The notes under the pieces were generated by a model. It did no database searches and was not told where the DNA came from. It saw nothing but the letters and a program-made list of their open reading frames with translations. Of a stretch of DNA of 34,269 nucleotides, positions 2,977-34,269 are shown piece after piece. The DNA lies in the NCBI GenBank assembly GCA_021736525.1, contig JAIPFR010000007.1, positions 1 to 34,269 on the forward strand, in the 5' to 3' direction. This stretch comes from Spirochaetia bacterium (lineage in GTDB: Bacteria > Spirochaetota > Spirochaetia > JABMQR01). Each line of letters starts with the position of its first letter. The stretch's first letter is position 1. Position numbers and translations under genes: made by a program.

Positions 2977-2999
2977 CCGCAGTTATGGGAGAAACATGC

Positions 3000-3305
3000 A
3001 TGGATAGTCATGTAGTCAGGGTAACCGTTTTAGGGAACAAGCTGTCAGTTCGTACTGATGCACCCCCTGAACAACTTTCCGCTACAATATCGTTTATAGA
3101 GGAGAAGGCTGAATTACTGAAAACTGCTTCCATTGCAGCAGATCCGTTAAAACTCAGCATTCTCCTGAATATCATCCTAGCAGATGAACTTATTAAAGCC
3201 AACAAAGAATTGGTTAAGATCAAGCAGACTGAATTTTCTGAGCTGGAAAAAGCTGACAAGCTGGCATCCGATTTGATCGAATTGATATCACATGAAATCG
3301 AATAG
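3000..3305 (+). CDS. zapA: ZapA-family cell division protein
   Basis: ZapA bundles FtsZ filaments at mid-cell. The protein has the usual layout: a short beta-rich N-terminus (VRVTVLGNKLSVRTDAPPE), a helical segment, and a C-terminal coiled coil (LLNIILADELIKANKELVKIKQ). The ORF track starts at ATG 2985, but GGGAGAA (2987-2993) is placed correctly for the in-frame ATG at 3000, giving MDSHVVRVTVLG (101 aa). The N-terminal VRVTVLG-type strand is what ZapA proteins normally start with. It lies 23 nt after the ZapB-like gene, and the 6S RNA begins right at its stop codon, an arrangement known from other bacteria. Confidence 0.8.
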   Translation: MDSHVVRVTVLGNKLSVRTDAPPEQLSATISFIEEKAELLKTASIAADPLKLSILLNIILADELIKANKELVKIKQTEFSELEKADKLASDLIELISHEIE

Positions 3306-3513
3306 CCGCATTCTGATTGATCACTGAAGATTACAAGTTCCTGCGGTGTGCGGGCGAAACACAAATCTCTTGGGTCAACTATTATAAAAGGGACTTCAAC
3401 GTTTTCCTGTTGAATTGATCCATGTACTTGGAACAGGATGCAGGTTACAGAAGACCCACTTGAACCTATGAAGTTCAAGAGATTACGTTTCAATCGGCAT
3501 CGCGGGTTTTTTT
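3306..3513 (+). ncRNA. ssrS: 6S RNA (RNA polymerase-binding regulatory RNA)
   Basis: 6S RNA mimics an open promoter and sequesters housekeeping RNA polymerase. The fold is visible here. A long closing stem pairs CCGCATTCTGATTG (3306-3319) with CAATCGGCATCGCGG (3491-3505), with one bulge and one mismatch. A central bubble follows, whose 3' side carries the small hairpin CTTGAAC-CTATGAA-GTTCAAG (3459-3479). A terminal arm opens with TGGGTC/GACCCA (3371-3376, 3453-3458) and ends in TCCTGTT/AACAGGA (3405-3411, 3432-3438). The 3' bubble hairpin and the following GATTACG closely match the E. coli 6S segment CTTGAACC...GTTCAAGGGTTACAG. Seven T (3507-3513) follow the closing stem as a terminator. It starts directly after the zapA stop codon. 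The exact ends are estimated. Confidence 0.88.
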
Positions 3514-3589
3514 CCTATATTGAGAAAACTTAATGAATGCTTACATTTTTTAAAGTTGCCTCAATATTCTTCGGTTTCCAAGTTGCCCG

Positions 3590-3599
3590 CCCCCCCCCC
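3590..3599 (+). repeat. Run of ten C upstream of the TPR gene
   Basis: An uninterrupted C10 run lies 5 nt before the AGAGAGG ribosome-binding site of the TPR gene. Runs this long are prone to replication slippage. It would be coding only if translation began at ATG 3537. Confidence 0.9.
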
Positions 3600-3617: not shown

Positions 3618-4742
3618 ATGAACATTAAAGACAACCCTGAAATTCCTGAGCAGCTGAAAAACATTCTGTATATTTCCCTTCCTGAAGGAACTGGACGAAA
3701 AATTGATGATTTTATTATTGATGAAAATCATCTGATACCAGTTGAAATACCGAAAGGAGAGTCAGAACTCGATTTGACTAATCTCTCCTGGGAAATGATT
3801 GTATCAGCCATGCTCAGGATTTTTGCCTATAAACCGGACCATAGTGATATCGAATACTACCGAAAATTTATTCATGCTGTGCAGCCCGACATTATTCCGG
3901 AATTGACAAAAACTGGAGTTATTAAAGCAGAAAACAAAGATTTTCTATTAGCAGAAGAAATATTTCTCGCTTTGAATCATTTTGCCCCTGAAGAACCTTT
4001 CACATTTCTCAACCTTGCATTTCTCTACGAAGAGATGGCGGAAATCGCGAGGAAAACTGGCAGCAAGCTAAAAGAAAACTATTTAAGCAAGGCCTTTGAA
4101 ACCTACACTGCAGGTTTAGAGGTTCATCCTGATCATCCGGATATGCACTTTTATTCAGGGTATTTTTATCTTAAAAACCAGAATCCTTCAAAAACCCGCG
4201 AACATTTTGAGTTTTTCCTGGGTTTGGCCCCAGAAGATGAAAGAAGCAGTGAAATCCGGGAAATTACTGAGCGGATCAGCATGCAGAGTCAGGATGACCA
4301 GCTGTTTACTGAAGCTTTCGATCTCATAATGCTCGAAAATGAGCCAGAAGCTATAACTCGCATAGATCAGTTCCTTCAAAGGAATCCCCATGTCTGGAAT
4401 GCCTGGTTTCTCAAGGGATGGGCGCACAGGAGACTGGGAGAGTATTCAAAAGGAAAATATGCTCTGGAAAAAAGTCTTGAGCTGGAGAAGTATACTACCG
4501 ATATTTTTAATGAACTGGCTATTTGCTGTATGGAAACTGGATTCTTGACTCAAGCGTATAATCATTTAAAGGAAGCACTGGCAATAGAACCGGAAAACAC
4601 GAAAATCATATCAAACTTTGGGGTACTTGAGCTGAAAAAAGGCAATCCTGATGAGGCTCTCCGCTTTTTTCTGATAGTTCAGGAACTTGATCCTGATGAT
4701 GCAATAGCTGCGGACTATATTTCCAAGCTTTCAGAGGCCTGA
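3618..4742 (+). CDS. Tetratricopeptide-repeat protein
   Basis: A 374-residue soluble protein with no signal peptide. The N-terminal about 110 residues are unrecognised. From roughly residue 140 onward there are about five TPR units, seen as repeated helix pairs with the W/Y-G-A-P pattern: HFYSGYFYLKNQNPSKTREHFEFFL, AWFLKGWAHRRLGEYSKGKYALEKSLEL, ELAICCMETGFLTQAYNHLKEALAIEPEN, SNFGVLELKKGNPDEALRFFL. TPRs are protein-protein scaffolds, and the partner is unknown. The ORF track start is ATG 3537, but AGAGAGG (3604-3610) sits 7 nt before the in-frame ATG 3618, and upstream translation would cross the C10 run and read RPPPDERG. I therefore chose 3618. It lies 3 nt upstream of tsaE, so it is probably co-transcribed with tsaEB. 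Confidence 0.8.
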   Translation: MNIKDNPEIPEQLKNILYISLPEGTGRKIDDFIIDENHLIPVEIPKGESELDLTNLSWEMIVSAMLRIFAYKPDHSDIEYYRKFIHAVQPDIIPELTKTGVIKAENKDFLLAEEIFLALNHFAPEEPFTFLNLAFLYEEMAEIARKTGSKLKENYLSKAFETYTAGLEVHPDHPDMHFYSGYFYLKNQNPSKTREHFEFFLGLAPEDERSSEIREITERISMQSQDDQLFTEAFDLIMLENEPEAITRIDQFLQRNPHVWNAWFLKGWAHRRLGEYSKGKYALEKSLELEKYTTDIFNELAICCMETGFLTQAYNHLKEALAIEPENTKIISNFGVLELKKGNPDEALRFFLIVQELDPDDAIAADYISKLSEA

Positions 4743-11018: not shown

Positions 11019-12605
11019 TCAACGGGCAAGTAAAGCAATTTCCGGAATAAGCTGATCCGCGGTAAAAATACCGGCTTTTTCATAGAGCTCCTTACCTGCT
11101 TTCTGGTGTATAACTGCTCCAGTACAGGCGGCAGTATACGGATCCATACCTTGGGCTGCGAGACCTGCAATACATCCGGCCAGCACATCACCAGATCCTG
11201 CAGTACCCATTGCCGGATTCAGCCCCTCCAGTACCGCCAGTTTCCCGTCAGGAGAAGCTATATAGAGCATGTGGGCCTTATAAACTACCGTGCAATGATG
11301 CATTTCTGCAAAAACACGCACAGCTTCAGGTATTTTCTCAGGAGTCTTCTTTGTGCTTATGCCGGAAAGACGTTCAAATTCACCGGGATGAGGAGTCAGT
11401 ATCAGTGCCCCTTTTTTCTCCCCTTCCACTTCCCCTTCCACTTCCCCTTCCCCTTCCACTTCCACTTCCACTTCCACTTCCACTTCCCTTCCCCTGCTCC
11501 ATGCATCGGCACCTGATGGATGGGTTTTCAGTAATTCACTGAAAAGAGTCAGTGCGTCGGCATCCAGAACAACAGGAACAGAGCATTCAAGAAATTGCAG
11601 CAGCTGTCGGCGATTACTCTCATTCAAGCCCCACCCCGGTCCAGCTAGAACAGCATTGTAAGAGGCTGACAGCTCAGCAGCCGAAATAACATCTTCGCTC
11701 CGTTTACGGGTTATAACCGAGGGATTGGCCGCGACCGCAGCTGGATAGACTTCTTCTTCTGTGTACAGGGTTACCAATCCTGCCCGAATGTGCAGCGCCG
11801 CTGAAGCAGCAAGAACTGCCGCTCCGGGAGTTTTGGCAGACCCTGCAAACACCGCAGCAGTTCCTCTTGAATTCTTAAAATCTGATTTCAGCATAGGGCT
11901 CAGGGAAACAACATCTGGCGGCAGTAAAAAAGCTGCTTCCTTTGCCTCCAGAAGGAGATCGGGCGGGAACCCGGGATTAACAACCTCGATCTGTCCACAG
12001 AGCTGCCGGTTATGGGGAAGATAAAAAGGTGTTTTTGGAAGTCCCATGGTAACCGTCAGATCTGCGGGAATTACCAGAGTCTCAGCCCCACCAGTCGCGT
12101 ACATACCGCTTGGTATATCAACTGCTATAATAAAAGCTTTCAGCAGGCCATCTGCCCTGCCGGTGGAACAAAACTCTACAACTTCCTTTGCCGGCCCGCG
12201 AACAGCCCCGGAAATCCCTGTACCAGTAATGCCGTCAACCATTATATCTGCAGAAAGAAGGACTTTCCGTGCAGCAGGCTCACCCCATACCATAACAGGA
12301 ATCCCCAGCTTACGGCATATTTCCACCTGCATAGAGGCTATATCATTGAGTTTCTCCCTGATCAGTACTATTGATATACTACAGTAACCGGCAATAGCCG
12401 CTGCCCTGGCAGCAGTCATAGCATCCCCGCCATTATTCCCGGGACCTGCCAGAAAGACAATATTGGCGCTCTGAGAGCAATACGCCTGTACTGCATTGAA
12501 GACAGCCGTTCCAGCCTGTTCCATAAGAAGGATGCCGGGTATACCGTACTGCTCCTGTGCTTTCTTATCCACCATGCTCATGGTATCGGGAGTTACAATT
12601 TTCAC
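11019..12605 (-). CDS. nnr: Bifunctional NAD(P)H-hydrate repair enzyme (epimerase plus ADP-dependent dehydratase)
   Basis: This enzyme repairs hydrated NADH and NADPH. The N-terminal YjeF_N epimerase domain (about 1-210) interconverts the R and S hydrates and carries GPGNNGGDA at about 54-62. The C-terminal ribokinase-like dehydratase domain (about 220-528) removes water using ADP and shows AGPGWG, VLDADAL, LTPHPGEFERLSG and the catalytic GTAGSGDVLAG at about 468-478. The ORF track starts at TTG 12662. AGAGGAGG sits 8 nt before GTG 12605, giving VKIVTPDTMSMVDKKA, the normal domain start, so I chose that (528 aa). A hexanucleotide repeat inserts 22 alternating E/V and E/G residues just before LTPHPGE. 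The gene is divergent from secA. Confidence 0.93.
   Translation of the reverse strand: MKIVTPDTMSMVDKKAQEQYGIPGILLMEQAGTAVFNAVQAYCSQSANIVFLAGPGNNGGDAMTAARAAAIAGYCSISIVLIREKLNDIASMQVEICRKLGIPVMVWGEPAARKVLLSADIMVDGITGTGISGAVRGPAKEVVEFCSTGRADGLLKAFIIAVDIPSGMYATGGAETLVIPADLTVTMGLPKTPFYLPHNRQLCGQIEVVNPGFPPDLLLEAKEAAFLLPPDVVSLSPMLKSDFKNSRGTAAVFAGSAKTPGAAVLAASAALHIRAGLVTLYTEEEVYPAAVAANPSVITRKRSEDVISAAELSASYNAVLAGPGWGLNESNRRQLLQFLECSVPVVLDADALTLFSELLKTHPSGADAWSRGREVEVEVEVEVEGEGEVEGEVEGEKKGALILTPHPGEFERLSGISTKKTPEKIPEAVRVFAEMHHCTVVYKAHMLYIASPDGKLAVLEGLNPAMGTAGSGDVLAGCIAGLAAQGMDPYTAACTGAVIHQKAGKELYEKAGIFTADQLIPEIALLAR
11421..11486 (-). repeat. In-frame hexanucleotide repeat, 11 units, within nnr
   Basis: On the coding strand the units are GAAGTG x5, GAAGGG x2, then GAAGTG, GAAGGG, GAAGTG, GAAGGG, exactly 66 bp with no interruption. 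They encode EVEVEVEVEV EGEG EV EG EV EG. The unit length is a multiple of three, so gain or loss of units keeps the frame. Confidence 0.97.
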
Positions 12606-12738
12606 TTGAGCGGCCTCCTCTTGTCTGCTGGTAATTCTACCAGTTGATTTTGCCAGAGTCAAACATACATCAGTTCAAGTTGCATTATTGCGATTCTTTC
12701 AGTAATCTTATAGTATGTGAGCAATATAGAGGAATCAG

Positions 12739-19942: not shown

Positions 19943-21397
19943 TTAAAGAATATACCGGCTCAAATCTTGATTCATTACAATACCGGCCAGCCTCTCATCA
20001 ACATATTCACTTGTTACTGTTACTGTCTGACCGGCTAAATCCGATGCTGTAAAGGAGACTTCATCAAGCAGGAGTTCCATGATCGTCTGAAGTCTCCGGG
20101 CTCCGATATTTTCAGTCCGGGAATTTACCTCAGCAGCTATCGAACCCAGACGCTGAATTGCCCCTTCTGTGAAAATCAGCTCGACATCCTCGGTTCTCAT
20201 CAGTTCAACATACTGCCGGGTTATAGCATTCTCAGGCTCCGTTAAAATCCGGCAGAAATCAGCACTTGTCAGGTCTTCAAGCTCAACTCTGATTGGAAAT
20301 CTCCCCTGAAGTTCAGGAATCAGGTCGGACGGCTTGCTTATATGAAAGGCTCCCGCTGCAATGAATAATATATGTGACGTGTCTATTATACCATACTTTG
20401 TACTGACTTTCGATCCTTCTACAATCGGAAGGATATCACGCTGTACACCCTCCCGGGAGATATCTGGACCACTTCCCCCACCGCGGCTGCCGGAGGTCAC
20501 TTTATCAATCTCATCAATAAATATAATGCCCATCTGCTCAACTCTCTCCCGGGCTATGTCAGATGCATTATCGGTATCAATCAGCTTTTCCATTTCTTCA
20601 TCAAGGATGATTTGTCTGGCCTGTTTTACTGTCACATGCTTTTTCTTTTTTTTCGCGCCAAAGATGCTGCCCAGACTGTTAAGGGCATTCTGCATATCTT
20701 CCATATTTCCGCCGGCAAAAAGCTCTATGCCCTTTGGTCCTCGTTGAGAAATATTTACATCAATCTCTCGGCTGTCAAGTTTGCCGTCTCTAAGCATTTT
20801 ACGAAATTTATCCCGTGTAGTAGTCTCGCCTCCCGAAGCAGCATCTCCAACTGCCGACTCTCTGGCTGCCTGTCCGCGGTCATCTACCACAAAGACATTA
20901 CGGCTGTTCTCTTTACCGGCTTGTTCTTTGTTTTCCTGCTTCCCTACTCCAACCCCGACACCGACACCTGGCAGAAGAAGATCAAGGATATGCTCCTCAG
21001 TATTCCTCTCTGCTGTTTCACGGACATTTTCTGCCAATTCACTTTTTACCATCGAAACAGCTACACTCATAAGGTCACGGACCATAGATTCTACATCGCG
21101 ACCGACATATCCTACTTCGGTGAATTTAGTAGCTTCAACTTTAATGAACGGAGCACCGCTCAATTTTGAGAGTCTTCTGGCAATTTCAGTTTTACCGACC
21201 CCTGTAGGGCCGATCATTATGATATTTTTCGGCGATACTTCGTCTCTGATATCGTCAGGAAGTTTTTTACGGCGAATCCGGCTTCTCAATGCAATGGCAA
21301 CAGCCCGTTTTGCCTTGTCCTGGCTGATAATATATTTATCAAGTTCCTCAACTATTTCTGCCGGGGTCATGGTGTCAAGATCTTTTCTATTGGTCAT
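19943..21397 (-). CDS. hslU: HslUV protease ATPase subunit HslU
   Basis: HslU is the AAA+ unfoldase that feeds substrates to the HslV peptidase. The 484-residue protein is slightly longer than E. coli HslU (443). It starts with MTPAEIVEELDKYIISQDKAKRAVAIALRSR. Walker A GPTGVGKT is at 63-70, GYVGRDVESMVRDL carries the pore GYVG loop, Walker B is IIFIDEIDKV, and the C-terminal residues LSRYIL insert into HslV. Extra length sits in the I-domain, where a hexanucleotide repeat encodes GVGVGVGVG at about 144-152, followed by a polar stretch. GGAGG precedes the ATG, and the stop of hslV overlaps the start by 1 nt. Confidence 0.97.
   Translation of the reverse strand: MTNRKDLDTMTPAEIVEELDKYIISQDKAKRAVAIALRSRIRRKKLPDDIRDEVSPKNIIMIGPTGVGKTEIARRLSKLSGAPFIKVEATKFTEVGYVGRDVESMVRDLMSVAVSMVKSELAENVRETAERNTEEHILDLLLPGVGVGVGVGKQENKEQAGKENSRNVFVVDDRGQAARESAVGDAASGGETTTRDKFRKMLRDGKLDSREIDVNISQRGPKGIELFAGGNMEDMQNALNSLGSIFGAKKKKKHVTVKQARQIILDEEMEKLIDTDNASDIARERVEQMGIIFIDEIDKVTSGSRGGGSGPDISREGVQRDILPIVEGSKVSTKYGIIDTSHILFIAAGAFHISKPSDLIPELQGRFPIRVELEDLTSADFCRILTEPENAITRQYVELMRTEDVELIFTEGAIQRLGSIAAEVNSRTENIGARRLQTIMELLLDEVSFTASDLAGQTVTVTSEYVDERLAGIVMNQDLSRYIL
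20945..20968 (-). repeat. Hexanucleotide repeat encoding GVGVGVGV within hslU
   Basis: On the coding strand the units are GGTGTC GGTGTC GGGGTT GGAGTA: four degenerate GGNGTN units, in frame, in the I-domain of HslU between ILDLLLP and KQENKEQ. E. coli HslU has no comparable stretch at this place. Confidence 0.85.
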
Positions 21398-34242: not shown

Positions 34243-34269
34243 GTTCATTTAGGGTTCATTTAGGGTTCA
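34243..34269 (+). repeat. 11-bp tandem repeat, cut by the window edge
   Basis: GTTCATTTAGG occurs twice head to tail and a third copy begins (GTTCA) at the last base, so the array continues outside the window. The copies seen are identical. Confidence 0.9.

Follow-up and report, generated by a model that had tools for sequence, protein, structure and literature searches.

The gap between zapA and a downstream TPR-repeat protein gene in an uncultured spirochaete almost certainly encodes a 6S RNA, judging from covariance-model matches and from the conserved fold of the sequence. The gene (ssrS; mature RNA about 178 nt, forward strand, positions 3335-3512 of the window, the whole 34,269-nt stretch of DNA that we analysed) is itself an ordinary, well-supported member of a known family. 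The modestly new part is a candidate promoter embedded in the cell-division gene zapA, a reasonable and testable addition that resembles the distal promoter of Escherichia coli ssrS.

Identity, boundaries and fold of the 6S RNA

The initial annotation had placed a 6S gene in this gap and proposed a search with the Rfam 6S covariance model, which the sequence passed: when the whole window was compared to Rfam 15 with cmscan, 3335-3512 (+) matched RF00013 over the full model (positions 1-187 of 187) at 64.7 bits, against a gathering score of 46.4 bits (E 9e-11, a value that refers to the entire window). This was the sole Rfam match above any curated score in the window, and the 74% complete genome assembly has no RF00013 match besides the window copy. 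A second covariance model, R1, built solely from aligned Spirochaetia 6S sequences, scored the window copy, one of its own building sequences, at 171.2 bits and recovered E. coli ssrS from exactly its annotated first base onward (41.2 bits). This recovery is independent, reciprocal evidence for 6S identity. A direct search for DNA similarity to E. coli genomes found none.

The architecture first described from the window (closing stem, bubble and terminal arm) is conserved among relatives. An alignment of 23 spirochaetal 6S sequences, folded with RNAalifold, yielded a consensus of 47 pairs, 29 of which showed compensatory changes on both sides (18.7 in shuffles, with 0 of 500 as high). Paired cells made up 91.4% of this alignment versus 79.7% in shuffles, 141 cells versus 49 were changed on both sides, and the covariation score was 0.399 versus 0.192, a value reached in 0 of 500 shuffles; all slid versions scored far lower. 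In the fold, the 5' arm of the closing stem, CCTGCGGTGTGCG (3340-3352, +), pairs with 3494-3506; its 12 pairs were intact in 100% of cells, and 6 of them showed compensatory changes. The 5' strand of the central region, ATCTCTTGGGTCAACTATT (3365-3383, +), is the expected template for pRNA by analogy with E. coli. Within it, CUCUUG (3367-3372) pairs with CAAGAG (3476-3481) with a probability of 0.94-1.0 in free RNA, and the helix 38-45/170-177 was present in 96.7% of cells.

The RNA begins near 3335, about 29 nt past the zapA stop codon (3303-3305), because the RF00013 match begins there and because inclusion of 3306-3334 weakens the fold: 3335-3512 alone folds at -56.6 kcal/mol (z -3.78; 0 of 200 dinucleotide shuffles as good), whereas the extended segment is less exceptional (z -2.28). 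The 5' end proposed at first, 3306, directly at the zapA stop, was therefore about 29 nt too early. The 3' end was placed correctly: the 3' arm of the closing stem is followed by seven T residues (3507-3513), and together these (3494-3513, +) form the probable transcript end, a T run after the closing stem being present in most relatives. A stem followed by T7 is also what a chance or terminator structure in the zapA 3' untranslated region would leave, but that reading carries almost no weight, refuted as it is by the full-length covariance-model match, and also opposed by the wide covariation and the reciprocal recovery of E. coli ssrS. The antisense ORF called at 3008-3493 had been dismissed as spurious, and a Pfam search returned no match for it.

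The zapB-zapA-6S locus in Spirochaetia

Upstream of the 6S gene lie zapB (2578-2976, +; PF06005, E 6.6e-08) and zapA (2985-3305, +; PF05164, E 8.8e-07), themselves preceded by the genes for IF-3 (infC) and rplT in a locus of the order infC-rpmI-rplT-zapB-zapA. Past the 6S gene come the TPR-repeat protein gene (3618-4742, +; Pfam TPR models and sequence), TsaE, and then, occupying the tsaB position, a TsaD-like protein. We infer that the TPR gene starts at ATG 3618 and not at 3537, on the basis of a ribosome-binding-like sequence, GAGAGAGG, just upstream. A run of C residues (3589-3599) lies immediately ahead of that site, where the sister species reads CCCCACCCCACCCC; the tract may vary in length.

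Simple repeats occur elsewhere in the window. A TCCACT hexamer array of 12.5 copies (11419-11492) lies inside a minus-strand ORF (11019-12662) and adds a (Val-Glu/Gly-Glu)n insert to its product, which by eye resembles an NAD(P)HX repair enzyme. Another in-frame repeat, a short GVGVGVG insert, is found in ORF 19943-21397, presumably HslU-like from its appearance, and GTTCATTTAGG is repeated 2.5 times at 34243-34269, flush with the end of the contig.

In the named collection, rplT had its closest relatives in uncultured Spirochaetales, Spirochaetaceae and Sphaerochaeta. The whole-genome set includes four members of the source genome's order, and each has the same 6S. Across the class Spirochaetia, R1 detected 6S in 74 of 199 genomes; RF00013 detected it in 20 of 41 relatives. 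The gene directly ahead of 6S on the same strand is zapA in the window, in E. coli and in 50 linked loci of the class, and the order zapB-zapA-6S here extends to Spirochaetia, beyond the beta- and gammaproteobacteria for which a ZapB-ZapA-SsrS-(Fau)-EVE array has been described (PMC7641849). The abutment of the RNA on zapA, part of the original description, does not hold for the window genome with its 29-nt gap but does for most relatives: in the 50 linked loci 6S starts a median of about 1 nt from the zapA stop, and in 37 of them between -5 and +9 nt. In two families, f3 and f8, zapA is absent ahead of 6S, which follows zapB instead.

In a further 18 Spirochaetia genomes zapA is present, with no 6S nearby or elsewhere by either R1 or RF00013. 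Behind their zapA genes, R1 with filters off returned nothing convincing (best E 0.52), and a search of five of these genomes with Rfam at E values up to 0.1 was likewise empty. Several of the 18 carry, directly behind zapA in place of 6S, a gene for a conserved MAL(I/V)TSQQ... protein.

A candidate promoter inside zapA

A consensus scan placed a sigma70-like pair, TTAAAA-17-TATCAT, inside zapA (3147-3175, +), with a predicted start near 3182. A promoter within zapA had been raised earlier as one option for this gene, and it gains comparative support here, although the window copy by itself is unremarkable: it matches the consensus at 9 of 12 positions, chance alone would give 1.6 matches of this class in the 751 bases that the scan covered, and it is not significant against synonymous recoding (p ~0.17). 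The sister species has a better pair, TTGAAA-17-TATTAT, differing from the window at synonymous positions, and at the same zapA codons (DPL[KR]...S[CS]IL) relatives carry TTTACG-18-TATACT, TTGAAA-17-TATCAT, TTGCGT-17-TATACT and similar pairs.

In the codon test, 16 families were represented by one zapA each, and every gene was compared with versions of itself in which synonymous codons had been redrawn from those of the same locus; sites of at least 9 bits under an E. coli sigma70 matrix were counted as strong. At the zapA codon site, which had been noticed beforehand although the test spans all positions, 5.39 of the 16 families (five to six; not fully independent of one another) had a strong site, compared to 0.79 expected from recoding. 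No other zapA position averaged above 1.0 families, and the null maximum, taken at any position, never reached 5 in 400 sets. Averaging over all families gave a Stouffer value of 2.4 at this site, with other positions higher; the per-family count is the informative test, since averaging dilutes the site. Among the 18 zapA genes lacking 6S, two also score above 9 at the site; as the 18 genes differ in base composition too, the contrast is weak support for an embedded promoter. Together, the counts show that in five to six of 16 families a promoter-like pair is kept at one codon site beyond what codon usage and protein sequence account for. The stronger proposal, that in several families the synonymous codons of the conserved DPL[KR]...S[CS]IL segment are under selection for a sigma70 promoter driving 6S, with division gene and polymerase regulator physically fused in that 6S starts at the zapA stop and has its promoter within the coding sequence, seems to us evenly balanced between true and false, and we would give about equal odds for and against use of the zapA promoter in the source species.

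The 6S RNA could instead have no promoter of its own and be cut from the infC-rpmI-rplT-zapB-zapA transcript, the pair in zapA being incidental. All genes of the locus run in the same direction, 6S abuts the zapA stop in most linked loci, roughly ten families with zapA-6S lack a promoter-like site in zapA, and no convincing promoter lies close to 6S (the best score in the window is 3.1, versus a shuffle mean of 3.8). Against this stands the enrichment of promoter-like pairs at one zapA codon site. In addition, family f3, which has lost zapA, has TTGATT-17-TATATT right upstream of 6S in both of its genera, while in f8 zapB is separated from 6S by a terminator-like hairpin with a T-run; these two features suggest that 6S in those families needs its own start. 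On balance we consider an origin by processing alone possible but somewhat unlikely. In f3 (L006 and L016), an inverted repeat of the type ATATACACATATC...GATATGTGTATAT overlaps the TTGATT-17-TATATT pair and is a possible operator.

It is improbable that 6S starts near its mature 5' end, from a promoter within the 29-nt spacer whose poor -10 element would be GATTAC (3329-3334). The sister species has almost the same spacer and some relatives have good proximal pairs (TTGCTT-17-TATACT in L020, for example), but in the window GATTAC has no -35 partner and there is no enrichment over shuffles, and most relatives have no room for such a promoter. Over 37 loci, a promoter directly upstream of 6S gave a weak overall signal (mean z 0.33), with no enrichment in the window, and was set aside as a candidate.

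Proposed synthesis and action, and comparison with known 6S systems

6S RNA mimics an open promoter and occupies the main-sigma RNA polymerase holoenzyme when growth slows, keeping the enzyme in reserve; its release follows when the polymerase makes a short pRNA with the 5' bubble strand as template. By analogy, the spirochaetal RNA would fold as such a mimic and hold the main-sigma holoenzyme during slow growth. Its expression, polymerase binding, pRNA synthesis and 5' processing are all inferred. Transcription would most likely begin near 3182, from the sigma70-type promoter in zapA (-35 at 3147, -10 at 3170-3175), with read-through from the rplT-zapB-zapA operon as a probable second source; the 5' leader would be trimmed to about 3335, and the transcript is predicted to end at the closing stem and T7.

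Synthesis of pRNA on the 5' bubble strand would then leave the freed 3' strand to close as a CUUGAAC/GUUCAAG hairpin, releasing the polymerase. The initial annotation had pointed to this hairpin on the 3' side (CTTGAAC-loop-GTTCAAG, 3459-3479, +). It can form there, and 92.5% of cells keep standard pairs, yet in free RNA its predicted probability is at most about 0.05: it excludes the CUCUUG/CAAGAG helix, which competes for the hairpin's 3' arm and wins. With 3365-3383 kept from pairing, the effect expected of pRNA, the hairpin probability rises to 0.94-1.0. The predicted change is the one described for E. coli 6S, in which the pRNA frees the other strand and a 3' stem loop forms (PMC10406553). 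Both arms are conserved in the spirochaetal alignment, though covariation in the hairpin does not exceed that of shuffles, and a pRNA-driven switch is for that reason a prediction by analogy.

These results add a solid 6S RNA for a little-studied spirochaete order and show that the zapB-zapA-6S order is not limited to proteobacteria. The zapA promoter, if real, would explain how a 6S gene without intergenic room is transcribed, and would allow a simple test of whether control of division and of polymerase is coupled at this locus.

Compared to E. coli ssrS and the RF00013 family, the window RNA has the same length, closing stem, central bubble and terminal arm. It shares with E. coli the GTTCAAG segment on the 3' side and CGGCATC in the closing arm, bearing out the earlier remark that the 3' bubble segment is close to that of E. 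coli, and it has the same place behind zapA. Unlike in E. coli ssrS, the closing stem of the window RNA runs straight into T7; the gap to zapA is 29 nt rather than 41 nt, the downstream gene is TPR rather than fau, and the candidate distal promoter lies about 159 nt upstream, versus about 220 in E. coli. There, ssrS has two promoters, and a 404-nt precursor is trimmed at its 5' end to the mature 183 nt (PMC10406553). Given this precursor length and the position of ssrS 41 nt behind zapA, the E. coli distal start also falls inside zapA, by our reckoning about 30 nt closer to the beginning of the gene than the spirochaetal candidate. The order and orientation of zapB, zapA and 6S are those of the beta- and gammaproteobacterial array (PMC7641849), whereas the window locus belongs to Spirochaetia, follows infC and rplT, precedes TPR-tsaE-tsaB and has neither a fau nor an EVE gene adjacent. 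Borrelia burgdorferi likewise has a spirochaete 6S, seen there in RNA-seq (PMC6041397).
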